Of a stretch of DNA of 40,893 bases, positions 36,671 through 40,324 are shown piece after piece. A program made the translations under genes and the position numbers. Origin of the DNA: Candidatus Mediterraneibacter pullicola (GTDB lineage Bacteria; Bacillota; Clostridia; Lachnospirales; Lachnospiraceae). The notes under the pieces were generated by a model that saw nothing but the letters and a program-made list of their open reading frames with translations, ran no database searches and was not told the DNA's origin. Numbering within the stretch: position 1 is the stretch's first letter; every line of letters begins with the position of its first letter. The DNA is taken from positions 1-40,893 of the forward strand of contig DXAK01000028.1 in NCBI GenBank assembly GCA_019117065.1, written 5' to 3'.

Positions 36671-37363
36671 TTACGCGAGCTTCAGCGGGTTGACCTTCAC
36701 GCCCGGACCCATTGTAGATGTAAGAGTTACGCTCTTAAGGTACTGGCCCTTTACCGCTGCCGGTCTTGCCTTGTTGATCGCGTCAATAAGCGTTTGGAAG
36801 TTGTCCGCTAACTGCTCCTCAGTAAAGGATGCTTTACCAATTGGCACGTGGATAATATTTGTCTTGTCAAGTCTGTACTCGATCTTACCAGCCTTGATGT
36901 CGTTGACAGCCTTTGTTACATCCATTGTAACTGTTCCCGCTTTCGGGTTCGGCATGAGTCCCTTCGGTCCGAGCACACGTCCGAGACGTCCTACAACGCC
37001 CATCATGTCCGGTGTCGCAACAACTACGTCAAAGTCAAACCATCCCTCATTCTGAATTCTTGGGATCAGTTCGTCACCACCTACAAAATCAGCTCCTGCT
37101 GCTTTCGCTTCCTCAGCCTTCGCGTCTTTAGCAAACACGAGGATACGGACTTTCTTACCTGTTCCATGCGGAAGAACAACCGCACCACGGATCTGCTGGT
37201 CAGCGTGGCGTCCGTCACATCCTGTTCTGATGTGAGCCTCAATGGTCTCGTCAAACTTTGCTGTTGCTGCTTTCTTTACTAATGCTACTGCTTCTTCCTT
37301 ATCATAGAGATTTCCTCTCTCGATCAGTTTTGCAGCTTCGATATATTTCTTTCCTCGTTTCAT
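36671..37363 (-). CDS. rplA: 50S ribosomal protein L1
   Basis: Forms the mobile L1 stalk at the tRNA exit site and represses its own operon by binding mRNA. The 230-residue product has the normal length, with [20 protein letters not shown] at the N terminus, [20 protein letters not shown] (the signature) and the ending [26 protein letters not shown] precedes the ATG, and directly before that lies a 30-nt stem-loop nearly identical to the one in front of rplK. It is followed by a terminator and then by the inserted sugar genes instead of rplJ. Confidence 0.98.
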
Positions 37364-37477: not shown

Positions 37478-37580
37478 TTAGGCTCTAATGAGCACACCTC
37501 CTCGCTCCGCTCAGAGTATCTGCCTTCACACTAAGCCTCAAAATTTCTTGCTAATTGTTCAGTGCATCGCCAAGTGTTCT
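37478..37580. repeat. Intergenic repeat, copy Y (rplA-rplK spacer)
   Basis: About 100 bp matching copy X in the fusA-rpsG spacer. Exact blocks are GAGTATCTGC (37514-37523) and TGCATCGCCAAGT (37563-37575), with similar flanks and the same orientation. It abuts the rplK stop codon, as copy X abuts the rpsG stop. Only one unit is present here; the second, degenerate unit seen in copy X is absent. The rest of this 215-bp spacer holds the L1-type motif and nothing else I recognise. Confidence 0.65.
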
Positions 37581-38004
37581 ACTCTTCTACAACGACACCC
37601 ATGGAACGGCATGTTCCTGCTACCATACTCATTGCTGCCTCAACGCTTGCCGCGTTCAGATCCGGCATCTTCATCTCAGCGATCTCCTGAAGCTGAGCCT
37701 TTGTAATCGTTGCAACCTTATTTTTATTTGGTACGCCTGATCCGGACTGGATCTTGCATGCCTTCTTGATCAGAACTGCAGCTGGCGGTGTCTTTGTGAT
37801 GAAGCTGAAGCTTCTGTCATTGTATACCGTGATGACAACAGGGATAATCAGATCTCCCTGGTCTGCTGTTCTTGCGTTGAACTGCTTTGTAAATTCAACG
37901 ATATTCACACCGTGCTGTCCGAGGGCAGGACCAACCGGCGGTGCCGGAGTTGCCTTGCCGGCAGGAATCTGTAATTTGATATAACCTTCTACTTTTTTTG
38001 CCAT
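37579..38004 (-). CDS. rplK: 50S ribosomal protein L11
   Basis: Part of the GTPase-associated centre with 23S rRNA. ATG 38004 gives 141 residues, exactly the family length: [20 protein letters not shown], then [20 protein letters not shown]. The TTG at 38010 is rejected because AAGGAGG is 9 nt before the ATG. The central [19 protein letters not shown] and ending [12 protein letters not shown] are typical. It lies 52 bp after nusG, and the spacer holds the first L1-type stem-loop. Confidence 0.98.
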
Positions 38005-38056: not shown

Positions 38057-38575
38057 TTAATTCATTTTCTTCACTTCTGAAAAACTAAGCTCAACCGGAG
38101 TCTCCCGGCCAAACAGCTCAACATTGATAGACAGACTCTTCTTCTGCTCGTTCATGCTCTGCACGGCCCCTACTGTGCCTTCCCATGCGCCGCTCGTAAC
38201 AACAATCGTATCTCCCACTCCGAAGTTAACGACAACATTGTCTCTCTTAATTCCGAGATTTTCCATCTCGCTTTCTTCCAGCGGCACTGGCTTGGAACCG
38301 GGTCCTACAAATCCTGTAACTCCACGGGTATTTCTCACCACATACCATGTATCATCGTTCATAATCATATGGATCATGACATATCCCGGGAACATCTTCC
38401 TCTGTACAGCTTTCTGGACGCCATTCTTAAGCTCCGTCACTTCCTCCATAGGAACGCGAACCTCAAGGATCTGATCTTCCAGATGGCGGTTCTCGATTGT
38501 CTTATCAATATTCGCCTTTACCTTGTTTTCATACCCTGAATAAGTATGAACTACATACCATTTTGCCTCTGACAT
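38057..38575 (-). CDS. nusG: Transcription antitermination/termination factor NusG
   Basis: Binds RNA polymerase beta' and affects pausing, termination and coupling to ribosomes. ATG 38575 gives 172 residues: MSEAKWYVVHTYSGYENKVK (NGN domain), QRKMFPGYVMIHMIMNDDTW, then the KOW domain GDTIVVTSGAWEGTVGAVQS. The upstream GTG at 38596 is not used, because AAAGGTGAT just before the ATG serves as ribosome site. It is 25 bp after secE. Confidence 0.97.
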   Translation of the reverse strand: MSEAKWYVVHTYSGYENKVKANIDKTIENRHLEDQILEVRVPMEEVTELKNGVQKAVQRKMFPGYVMIHMIMNDDTWYVVRNTRGVTGFVGPGSKPVPLEESEMENLGIKRDNVVVNFGVGDTIVVTSGAWEGTVGAVQSMNEQKKSLSINVELFGRETPVELSFSEVKKMN

Positions 38576-38600
38576 AAAATCACCTTTCTGCTGCACTTTC

Positions 38601-38798
38601 CTATCGCATCAGTAATTCGATTCCGAATTGCAGGATCGCATCAATAATCGCGATCAGCGCTCCGAGAATTAAAGATACCGCAACAACTGCCGTGGTCTGT
38701 CTTGCAAGTGTCCTCTTGTCCGGCCAAATGACTTTCTTAAACTCTGCCTGAAGCCCTTTGAACCAGCTTTTCTTCTGAGTCTTTGTGTTTTCACTCAT
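38601..38798 (-). CDS. secE: Preprotein translocase subunit SecE
   Basis: Small essential subunit of the SecYEG channel in the membrane. The 65-residue product is the short Gram-positive form: a charged N terminus, the conserved amphipathic motif WFKGLQAEFKKVIWPDKRTL, and one membrane span (about 36-58: TAVVAVSLILGALIAIIDAI). It lies between rpmG (21 bp) and nusG, the standard order. Confidence 0.96.
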   Translation of the reverse strand: MSENTKTQKKSWFKGLQAEFKKVIWPDKRTLARQTTAVVAVSLILGALIAIIDAILQFGIELLMR

Positions 38799-38819
38799 AA
38801 TGCCACTTCCTTCCGACGA

Positions 38820-38969
38820 CTACTTTGTCTCTTTATGCAGTGTGTGTGATTTACAGAATCTGCAATACTTCTTAGTCTCCATGCGGTCCGGATGAGCTTT
38901 CTTATCCTTCGTCATGTTGTAGTTACGGTTTTTACATTCCGTACACTCCAGTGTAATTCTTGTGCGCAC
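38820..38969 (-). CDS. rpmG: 50S ribosomal protein L33, GTG start
   Basis: Small zinc-ribbon ribosomal protein of 49 residues, too short for most open-frame lists. Translation from GTG 38969 gives [20 protein letters not shown], then [20 protein letters not shown] and SHTLHKETK. The cysteine pairs at 9/12 and 36/39 show that this is the zinc-binding (C+) form. GAGGTG lies 6 nt before the start. It is the first gene of the rpmG-secE-nusG-rplK-rplA unit. Confidence 0.95.
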
Positions 38970-39043
38970 AACTTCCACCTCGCTTTTTTCATATTTACCT
39001 GCGTGTTACTCTGATGGTTGCGAAGCCATCGATTTTTAGGCAT

Positions 39044-39111
39044 AAAAAAAAGACCTAACTTCCATTCGCCGTAGTATTGTACCATGGTGGGCAGATAGAA
39101 GTCAAGGTCTT
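39044..39111 (-). terminator. Terminator of the AI-2E gene enclosing the rpmG promoter
   Basis: On the minus strand AAGACCT (39111-39105) pairs with AGGTCTT (39056-39050), and ACTTC (39102-39098) with GAAGT (39062-39058). A T8 run (39051-39044) overlaps the end of the second arm. The 35-nt loop contains the -10 box of the rpmG promoter, and the first arm overlaps its -35 box. Read-through RNA from upstream can fold it; RNA started at the internal promoter lacks the first arm. Confidence 0.7.
39076..39105 (-). promoter_or_regulatory. Promoter of rpmG-secE-nusG-rplK-rplA
   Basis: Minus strand TTGACT (39100-39105), 18-nt spacer, TACAAT (39076-39081), start near 39069, leader about 100 nt. It is nested within the terminator hairpin of the upstream gene. 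Confidence 0.75.
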
Positions 39112-39139
39112 ACGTGGATTTTTTGTCTTACAGGATTTT

Positions 39140-40324
39140 TTAACGCGGGGAATCAGGCTCCTCTGGCTGCGCGGTCCTGATATCCCTATGTTTGCTCTTA
39201 AGCTTCTTATATACACTGGCACGGAATAGCGTATAGACAACAGATGTGATAGGGATGAAAATCAACATTCCAACAACCCCCATCAGGCTGCCGCCGATAG
39301 TCACTGCTGCCAGAACCCAGATTGATGGCAGTCCCACGGAATTCCCTACCACTTTGGGATAAATCAGGTTTCCTTCGATCTGCTGAAGCACAAGGAACAT
39401 AATTACAAAGATGAGCGCTTGTAGCGGATCCACCATCAAAATTAAGAATGCTCCTACGATACAGCCGATAAACGCGCCAAATATCGGAATCAACGCGGTA
39501 AACGCGATAAGTACTCCTACGAGCAGGGAATACGGCATGTTAAAGATGCTCATGGCAATAAAGAACATCATTCCCAGTATCAAAGCCTCTACACACTGCC
39601 CCGTCAGAAAACTCGAAAAGGATTTTGCCGCCAGTGAACATACCTCCAAGCACCACTCCACTTTCTTCTCCGGGAGAAACGCATACATCACTTTCCTCAC
39701 CTGTACGTTGAGTTTTTCTTTCTGCAGAAGTACATAGCACGCAAATACAAAAGCGATCACAAACGTCGCCACTCCGCTTACAATGGAACCGATGGCAGAC
39801 ATGGTGGAATTCAGTACATTCCCCGCCCCATTCTGGAAGAAGGACATCGCACTGTCCAGCAGTTTTCCTACATCAAGATTTAAGTTATCAAGCCATGCGC
39901 GGATCTCGCTGTTATCCATGAACAATTCTTCCAGCGTCCTCTGCGCCTGCGGAATGAATGTCTGGATATTCTTTCCCAAAGAGAGAATTGTCTGCGTCAG
40001 TTCAGGTATCACTACAAACATAACAAGAACAACCACACCGATCACAATCGCAATCGTCAGCACAAGGCTTAGCGGCCGGGCGAGTCTCTGGGCAATTTTC
40101 TTGTCTCTTAAACGTCTGTTCCCGAAAATCTTCTTCTCCAGAAATTTCATTGGAACATTGAGAACAAACGCGATTCCCCCGCCGAGTAGAAAAGGAAATA
40201 TAATGCCAAATGCAAACCCAATCCACTCAAACAGAATATTATAGTTCCACAATGCAATCAAAATAATAATCGTAAAAAGGATCAGTTCCTTCATTTTCCG
40301 CATATTTTCTTTGTCAAGCCTCAT
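39140..40324 (-). CDS. AI-2E/PerM family membrane protein
   Basis: The 394-residue integral membrane protein belongs to the AI-2E transporter/PerM superfamily, whose proven members include autoinducer exporters and Na+/H+ or lipid-related transporters; the substrate is unknown. About eight spans are visible: three in residues 12-112, a hydrophilic segment (113-175), then five more including GSIVSGVATFVIAFVFACYV, IGMKTG-free loops, PYSLLVGVLIAFTALIPIFG and GAFIGCIVGAFLILMVDP. The late motif QQIEGNLIYPKVVGNSVGLP is the family signature. AGGGAGG precedes the ATG by 4 nt, and those bases lie in the coding tail of the Rpn transposase remnant. Confidence 0.9.
   Translation of the reverse strand: MRLDKENMRKMKELILFTIIILIALWNYNILFEWIGFAFGIIFPFLLGGGIAFVLNVPMKFLEKKIFGNRRLRDKKIAQRLARPLSLVLTIAIVIGVVVLVMFVVIPELTQTILSLGKNIQTFIPQAQRTLEELFMDNSEIRAWLDNLNLDVGKLLDSAMSFFQNGAGNVLNSTMSAIGSIVSGVATFVIAFVFACYVLLQKEKLNVQVRKVMYAFLPEKKVEWCLEVCSLAAKSFSSFLTGQCVEALILGMMFFIAMSIFNMPYSLLVGVLIAFTALIPIFGAFIGCIVGAFLILMVDPLQALIFVIMFLVLQQIEGNLIYPKVVGNSVGLPSIWVLAAVTIGGSLMGVVGMLIFIPITSVVYTLFRASVYKKLKSKHRDIRTAQPEEPDSPR

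Follow-up and report, generated by a model that had tools for sequence, protein, structure and literature searches.

Can one short stretch of DNA act as the promoter of an operon and, at the same time, as the terminator of transcription arriving from the gene before it? This question is raised by the region upstream of rpmG in Candidatus Mediterraneibacter pullicola, located on contig DXAK01000028.1 of assembly GCA_019117065.1; the whole stretch that was analysed, 40,893 nucleotides long, is called the window below. The rpmG-secE-nusG-rplK-rplA genes form an essential ribosome-and-transcription gene set, carried here by gut bacteria. A preliminary description of the window had placed both boxes of the promoter of this operon inside a stem followed by eight T, had read this stem as the terminator of the upstream AI-2E gene, and had proposed that the arrangement insulates the operon from upstream transcription.

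The locus and the rpmG promoter

The gene names given in the preliminary description, AI-2E (PF01594), L33, SecE, NusG, L11 and L1, were all confirmed (Table 1). The NusG of the window is 96-97% identical to that of the first five relatives retrieved by a NusG search, which places the window in a Mediterraneibacter-like lineage. Eighty relatives were collected by NusG, 76 of which have a readable region upstream of rpmG and, together with the window (L001), form a set of 77 loci; L013 and L031 (rpmG unreadable) and L011 and L045 (cut) were left out. The addition of 30 further loci, drawn from 104 family genomes that match a leader pattern described below, resulted in 107 loci. Note that the group names used in what follows are labels by motif or locus number and not taxonomy.

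Table 1. Features of the rpmG upstream region and of the flanking genes, in coordinates of the window.
Feature	Positions	Strand	Basis
AI-2E family transporter gene (co-directional upstream gene)	39140..40324	minus	ORF; PF01594 E=2e-50
5′ arm of stem, AAGACCU-U-GACUUCUAU, holds the -35 box	39095..39111	minus	fold
-35 box TTGACT, within 5′ arm	39100..39105	minus	promoter scan; hexamers in 77 loci
-10 box TACAAT, TG one base upstream, within stem-loop	39076..39081	minus	promoter scan; 77 loci
Predicted transcription start, G of GCGA, 6 nt after -10	39069	minus	fixed spacing and abrupt onset of conservation, 77 loci
5′-terminal leader element GCGAAUGGAAGUUAGGUCUUUUUUUUAUGCCUAAA, small UUAGGU/GCCUAA stem around U8	39035..39069	minus	conservation; fold
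3′ arm of stem, AUGGAAGUUAGGUCUU, also rpmG leader +5 to +20	39050..39065	minus	fold; conservation
T8 (U8): U-tract for read-through RNA, leader U8 for inner RNA	39044..39051	minus	77 loci
Second leader hairpin GAUGG-CUUCGCAA-CCAUC	39012..39031	minus	compensatory changes
rpmG ribosome-binding region GAGGTGGAAGTT	38970..38981	minus	sequence; little changed in relatives inspected
rpmG (L33), first gene of downstream operon	38820..38969	minus	protein identification
secE	38601..38798	minus	protein identification
nusG	38057..38575	minus	protein identification; residues aligned to N81/T82 (RNT) present
rplK (L11)	37579..38004	minus	protein identification
rplA (L1)	36671..37363	minus	protein identification

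The boxes TTGACT and TACAAT are separated by a spacer of 18 nt and together show 10/12 matches, and they are likely the promoter of rpmG-secE-nusG-rplK-rplA. The call is convincing because of conservation, since the match alone is not beyond chance: seven promoter-like sites were observed in 2.9 kb, compared with 4.7 in shuffles. The T, A and T of the -10 box and the preceding TG are 100% fixed (77/77 readable loci), the distance from the -10 box to a conserved GCGA is constant in all 77, and the three A directly 5′ of the -35 box are 84-96% conserved. The six bases between -10 and +1 vary, except for a partly kept G at -1. GCGA was taken as +1, from which a start at 39069 is predicted. It was also observed that TGGAAGT is common to the ribosome-binding region of rpmG (38981-38970) and to leader positions +6 to +12 (39064-39058), both on the minus strand.

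A stem-loop that encloses the promoter

Read-through RNA of the window (39125-39030, minus strand) folds into a 62-nt stem (39111-39050) that leads into U8 at 39051-39044, with a minimum free energy (MFE) of -25.1 kcal/mol and a z of -4.1; none of the 200 shuffles was as good. For the comparison across the 107 loci, the folded read-through RNA spanned -50 to the third T, and the 200 shuffles of each locus kept the -35 box, the TG and the -10 box. The stem is built of 7 bp (AAGACCU/AGGUCUU), a 1-nt bulge, 9 bp (GACUUCUAU/AUGGAAGUU) and then 4 and 5 bp. The original observation of a promoter inside a terminator-like stem is thereby confirmed, as both boxes lie within 39111-39050 and U8 follows, and two details need correction: the arms, described as 7 plus 5 bp, are longer, and whereas the -35 box does lie in the 5′ arm, the -10 box is found in an imperfect inner part of the stem and not in an open loop.

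To judge from its sequence, the window stem would qualify as an intrinsic terminator, presenting a stable hairpin directly before a U-tract. Its stem-loop of 62 nt is not compact, and a simple terminator scan did not list it; a common annotation pipeline accepts loops of 3-13 nt and stem-loops of at most 59 nt (limits quoted in an excerpt of PMC12207403). The 59-nt limit is an annotation limit and no mechanistic requirement. Simple scans found no separate terminator between the AI-2E stop and the promoter. In 346,925 bases of the window's genome, 3 of 483 T-runs have a stem foot enclosing a promoter-like site, and the site of the window is the strongest; the other two may be due to chance, because the scan had no shuffled control.

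Stem strength and the orientation of the upstream gene

Most Mediterraneibacter-, Faecalicatena-, Blautia- and Dorea-like loci have a z of -3 to -9, and the values of the distant, mostly TTGACG group are mostly near 0, with the exception of L108 (-3.1). As judged by reading, the inner stem parts (spacer versus discriminator) differ in sequence between genera and often still pair. The consensus of fixed-length alignments contained the nested stem in a seven-locus set (spacer 18, leader 18) and, partly, in nine Blautia-type loci, and in the sets of 32 and 22 loci it gave a trivial GGAAG/CUUUU hairpin instead.

Codon usage gave the orientation of the upstream gene at 78 of the 107 loci, 29 remaining without a confident call. 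The median z is -5.1 in the 63 co-directional loci versus -0.8 in the 15 divergent ones (one-sided p=1.1e-5), and z <= -3 is reached by 47 of the 56 co-directional loci of the lineage versus 2/15 divergent loci. The joint conservation of arms and promoter, which the preliminary description had put forward as a check, thus holds in co-directional lineage loci; the opposite case, a kept promoter without the arms, which it had counted against its own reading, occurs in divergent and distant loci and tends to follow orientation and lineage. The contrast persists without the distant group (56 co-directional versus 9 divergent, p=1e-4) and when the Mediterraneibacter type is removed as well (34 versus 9, p=0.002); this type offers no contrast because all 22 of its called loci are co-directional. 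Within single types, p is 0.028 for Blautia (7 co-directional, 2 divergent), 0.013 for other TTGACT (20 and 3), 0.12 for Dorea (7 and 4; 0.036 by MFE) and 0.47 for the distant group (7 and 6). A cruder method based on the longest open frame covered 104 loci (75 versus 29, p=4e-5), leaving 3/107 uncalled, and once the distant and Mediterraneibacter groups were removed it gave p=8e-4 (42 versus 17). Calls by the two methods conflict at 8 of 78 loci, namely four with strong stems that the cruder method calls divergent (L012, L021, L022 and L081) and four without strong stems (L075, L077, L088 and L111).

Independent pairs chosen on the NusG tree point in the same direction, the co-directional member having the stronger stem in 11 of 12, all but L052/L051 (sign p=0.003, Wilcoxon p=0.0012). 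In four of these pairs a locus of the distant group is matched with one of the lineage, and without them the count is 7/8 (sign p=0.035). When raw MFE replaces z, 10 of 12 pairs agree. One counted pair, L028/L035, is stemless on both sides. Strong stems beside a divergent gene are found at L052 (z -4.6) and L073 (z -3.4), and weak stems beside a co-directional gene, with no terminator found, at L041, L047 (and its near copy L112), L085, L088, L089, L105, L107 and L111. The MATE genes at L036 (divergent, stemless) and at L037/L049 (co-directional, with stem) were considered as one flipped gene and rejected, being only 33% and 23% identical.

Outside the Mediterraneibacter type, counting pairs column by column in a fixed register gave no significant result, and therefore whole halves of the stem were swapped between loci. 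In the 56 co-directional loci, own 5′ halves gave -25.5 kcal/mol versus -20.9 for swapped ones, and 0/5000 permutations reached the own value. By type, this advantage was matched in 4/5000 permutations for Mediterraneibacter, 43/5000 for Dorea and 0/5000 for other TTGACT; own halves were no better than swapped ones in the Blautia type (2128/5000), and no effect was seen in the 15 divergent (1086/5000) or 22 distant loci (4480/5000). Sense RNA is more structured than antisense RNA in 51 of the 56 co-directional loci (p=3e-10), and a weaker preference for the sense strand is present in divergent loci (10/15, p=0.013). The fit of the halves, together with this strand bias, favours an RNA hairpin over a DNA operator.

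An AI-2E gene lies upstream in only 13 of the 78 called loci, and the upstream proteins of the other 65 fall into 50 BLAST clusters; among 10 upstream proteins compared with Pfam, nine belong to different families (oxidoreductase, FTHFS, ABC transporter and aldose epimerase among them) and one has no match. This wide variation of upstream genes suggests an insulator rather than a gene-specific terminator, and the name AI-2E terminator is given up here. A separate terminator was found in 2/47 co-directional loci with z <= -3 versus 4/13 with z > -2 (p=0.017), a count that leaves out L029, L033 and L086 (z -3 to -2) and uses cut-offs set after the z values had been seen. The insulating mechanism is thus supported within one lineage by orientation dependence, by the fit of the halves and by the rarity of separate terminators next to strong stems.

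The conserved leader of the operon

From +1 onwards, the 77 loci share a nearly invariant block consisting of GCGAAUGGAAGUAGGUC (with small variations), U8 and AUGCCUAAA, with AUGCC directly after U8. The T-run comprises exactly eight T in 74/77 loci and nine in the other three. The pattern GGAAG(1-7)GGTC-T8-ATG occurs exactly in 104 of 299 family genomes (one per genus), and once per genome among the matches listed; its reversed control was never found in these 299. In all 30 loci fetched from the 104 pattern genomes, an rpmG CxxC motif lies 55-152 nt downstream. The leader block (3′ arm and T8) is more conserved than the 5′ arm and is kept in loci that lack the latter.

Core forms of the block also stand before rpmG in nine other families of the same order (f2, f4, f5, f6, f7, f8, f17, f22 and f24), with different flanks and in some cases with a small closing stem; the remaining matches of that search lie away from rpmG. 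Outside the order, the exact 15-mer G[GC]TC-T8-ATG precedes rpmG in only 5 of 30 fetched loci, which are L182 (the window), L183 (same family), L189, L190 and L192. The motif-flagged L186 was rejected as an rpmG locus, its gene not being L33. At class level, a run of at least six T at +4 to +38 is present in 19 of 26 rpmG loci versus 1.84 expected (18/25 without L195, of the window's family), often after a tiny 5′ hairpin. This sample consists of 69 genomes searched and 30 loci, 29 without the window's own, 26 of them with a promoter call; on inspection, two of these calls seem mistaken, L205 (scored as a hit) and L210 (scored as a miss). In other classes of the phylum (61 genomes searched, 29 loci fetched, 22 with a promoter call), the T-run is found in 5/22 loci versus 0.96 expected. 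Because the leader persists without the 5′ arm and occurs beyond the family, 3′ arm and U8 look primarily like a leader element, older than the stem.

Several side observations were made. In other families of Clostridia, tiny 5′-terminal hairpins directly before the T-run, resembling mini-terminators, are seen by reading in L206, L213, L216, L218, L221 and in f2 loci such as L133. Outside class Clostridia (L224, L228, L232, L233, L234, L250 and L252), the start is often (G)GTAAC right after the -10 spacing, and these loci lack the T-run. In G306, a genome of the order (L144-L150), GGTC-T8-ATGCC is part of a dispersed repeat with eight exact copies, several near contig ends; since none of the copies that were read adjoins rpmG, the repeat was dismissed as unrelated.

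A second hairpin follows in Mediterraneibacter/Dorea/Faecalicatena-like loci, its loop (yUCGCAA) being found in 58 of the 77 leaders. Among 49 distinct aligned sequences, each of the five pairs is formed in 48/48 sequences with letters at these positions, and three of the five occur as several pair types. The second hairpin has no Rfam match, and a search of 38500-39600 gave nothing above the gathering score (only two matches, E about 4). The G[GC]UCUUU part of the leader may resemble BoxA (NusB/S10); no second copy was found in the window's genome, which contains one perfect match and, elsewhere, one match with three mismatches. A leader peptide was rejected by reading of the sequences: the AUG at +5/+6 and another after U8 open short frames, indels shift the frame and lengths differ, and the AUG is absent in L075, L077 (ACG), L092 (TTG), L102 (CTG) and L106 (AAG).

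NusG and the U8 leader

The RNT of the window's NusG aligns to positions 80-82 of the 177-aa NusG chain 8ehq_G, which we take to be the NusG of Bacillus subtilis, and N-T stands at these positions in 104/106 NusG examined. N81 and T82 of NusG recognise TTNTTT, and a T-rich motif alone is insufficient for NusG-dependent pausing (both from an excerpt of the review PMC12288461). With T8 as a T-rich non-template motif in 74/77 loci and a NusG of the N81/T82 type, the leader has the sequence features of a candidate site for such a pause. In L206 and similar loci, the 5′ hairpin, about 12 nt and the T-tract would fit, by their spacing, a hairpin-stabilised NusG pause with the 3′ end near +29.

Proposed mechanism and alternative explanations

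Taken together, these results make it quite probable that a lineage-specific intrinsic terminator is wrapped around the rpmG-secE-nusG-rplK-rplA promoter. Polymerase coming from the upstream gene would transcribe the -35 region as the 5′ arm, the -10 region as the inner stem and loop, and the start of the leader as 3′ arm and U8, and the completed hairpin should end read-through transcription at U8. Polymerase from the inner promoter would start at 39069, past the 5′ arm, and run on into rpmG; its RNA could not form the hairpin because the start lies after this arm. Such an escape is plausible, since the inner leader RNA (from 39069) does not contain the 5′ arm and is no more stably folded than its shuffles (z +1.5). 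The leader (3′ arm and U8) would have existed before, and freely varying bases of the promoter upstream of it would then have evolved complementarity to it, insulation being the presumed benefit.

A two-layered origin is conceivable, and we put it forward tentatively: an old nusG-leader pause or mini-terminator of Clostridia, to which promoter complementarity, and with it an orientation-dependent stem, was added within the lineage. The old element would usually start with G and often carry a tiny 5′ hairpin; at a distance of about 12-25 nt from the start would come a T-run of 6-9, in many cases with (A)UGC behind it. Such an element might serve as a promoter-proximal NusG-dependent pause or as a mini-terminator, by which NusG could sense its own level. 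In Mediterraneibacter/Faecalicatena/Blautia/Dorea-like genomes, the added complementarity would let the U-tract terminate transcription from outside while leaving the operon's own RNA free, and the stem would be gained or lost with the direction of the neighbouring gene.

It is unlikely that the overlap exists for coupling, with polymerase ending at U8 being handed to the adjacent promoter. The effect of the Salmonella tufB-secE overlap on expression and fitness (excerpt of PMC7055797) lends this idea some weight, but the upstream genes are mostly unrelated between loci, which makes coupling to a conserved partner improbable. A generic recycling of polymerase is conceivable.

Disfavoured, and rather improbable, is the explanation that the rpmG leader RNA (GGAAG..GGUC-U8-AUGCC) alone is conserved and that the 5′ arm matches this leader by accident, through an A-tract (UP-like) and the TTGACTTCC context of the -35 box. 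The greater conservation of the leader block and its persistence without the 5′ arm would be expected under it, and the three conserved A before the -35 box could be a proximal UP element, by its consensus. However, against shuffles that keep not only the boxes but also the three A, a C and a T around the -35 box, the 47 co-directional loci with a strong stem still have z2 values of -2.2 to -8.0; moreover, the stem depends on orientation, and its halves fit each other only in co-directional loci.

That the stem serves to attenuate the rpmG operon itself is very unlikely: U8 does lie within the operon's own leader, but the 5′ arm is outside the transcript from the predicted inner start, and the inner leader folds no better than shuffles. 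Least credible of all is an inverted repeat that regulates the promoter as a DNA operator or cruciform around the -10 box, as several near-palindromic loci (e.g., CGCCGT..ACGGCG, by reading) might indicate, because sequences differ between genera while pairing is kept, the sense strand is the more structured one, and for an operator it should make no difference which way the upstream gene points.

If the wrapped-terminator reading is right, one short DNA stretch would be promoter, leader element and directional insulator, and would provide a comparative case in which the orientation of neighbours is a natural experiment. The hairpin is large and encloses a promoter, which suggests that size-limited annotation misses some terminators. 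The strongly conserved 5′-terminal U8 leader of the nusG operon, for which the window gave no Rfam match, makes it directly testable how these bacteria set their NusG level.

Comparison with known systems

The leader resembles those subject to NusG-dependent pausing in B. subtilis in that a T-rich leader motif meets a NusG of the N81/T82 type. The excerpt of PMC12288461 mentions no autoregulatory NusG pause in NusG's own operon, whereas the candidate described here would lie in the leader of the nusG operon itself.

A search of the literature for promoters in or over terminators returned a match only in PMC7055797; subscription papers were largely outside its reach, and the absence of others is unproven. 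In the Salmonella tufB-secE region, the terminator overlaps the secE-nusG promoter, and disturbance of this overlap affects expression and fitness (Brandis, Cao and Hughes, 2019, Mol Biol Evol, cited in PMC7055797, seen as an excerpt). As there, a downstream promoter shares DNA with an upstream terminator at our locus. However, tufB stands within a conserved operon order, as far as the excerpt goes, whereas the genes upstream of rpmG vary, no partner is conserved and the stem follows orientation. The tufB-secE gap of E. coli K-12 (L273) contains, within 243-285, a compact hairpin at 260-285 overlapped by a weak promoter-like TTGACG-18-CATCAT, the second hexamer of which lies inside this tufB-side hairpin; in the window, by contrast, the stem of 62 nt encloses both boxes, and the operon's own leader begins with its 3′ arm and U-tract. 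In E. coli, the frd operon extends over the promoter of ampC, and the frd terminator forms part of the downstream transcript (Grundstrom and Jaurin, 1982, cited in an excerpt of PMC11838884). Here, too, an upstream unit overlaps a downstream promoter and the terminator lies within the downstream transcript, but the frd terminator doubles, according to the same excerpt, as the ampC attenuator, whereas the inner RNA of our locus lacks the 5′ arm and should escape. Overlap of terminators and promoters is thus known; what sets the present element apart is that both boxes are enclosed, that the operon's own leader serves as 3′ arm and U-tract, and that the stem follows the direction of mostly unrelated neighbours.
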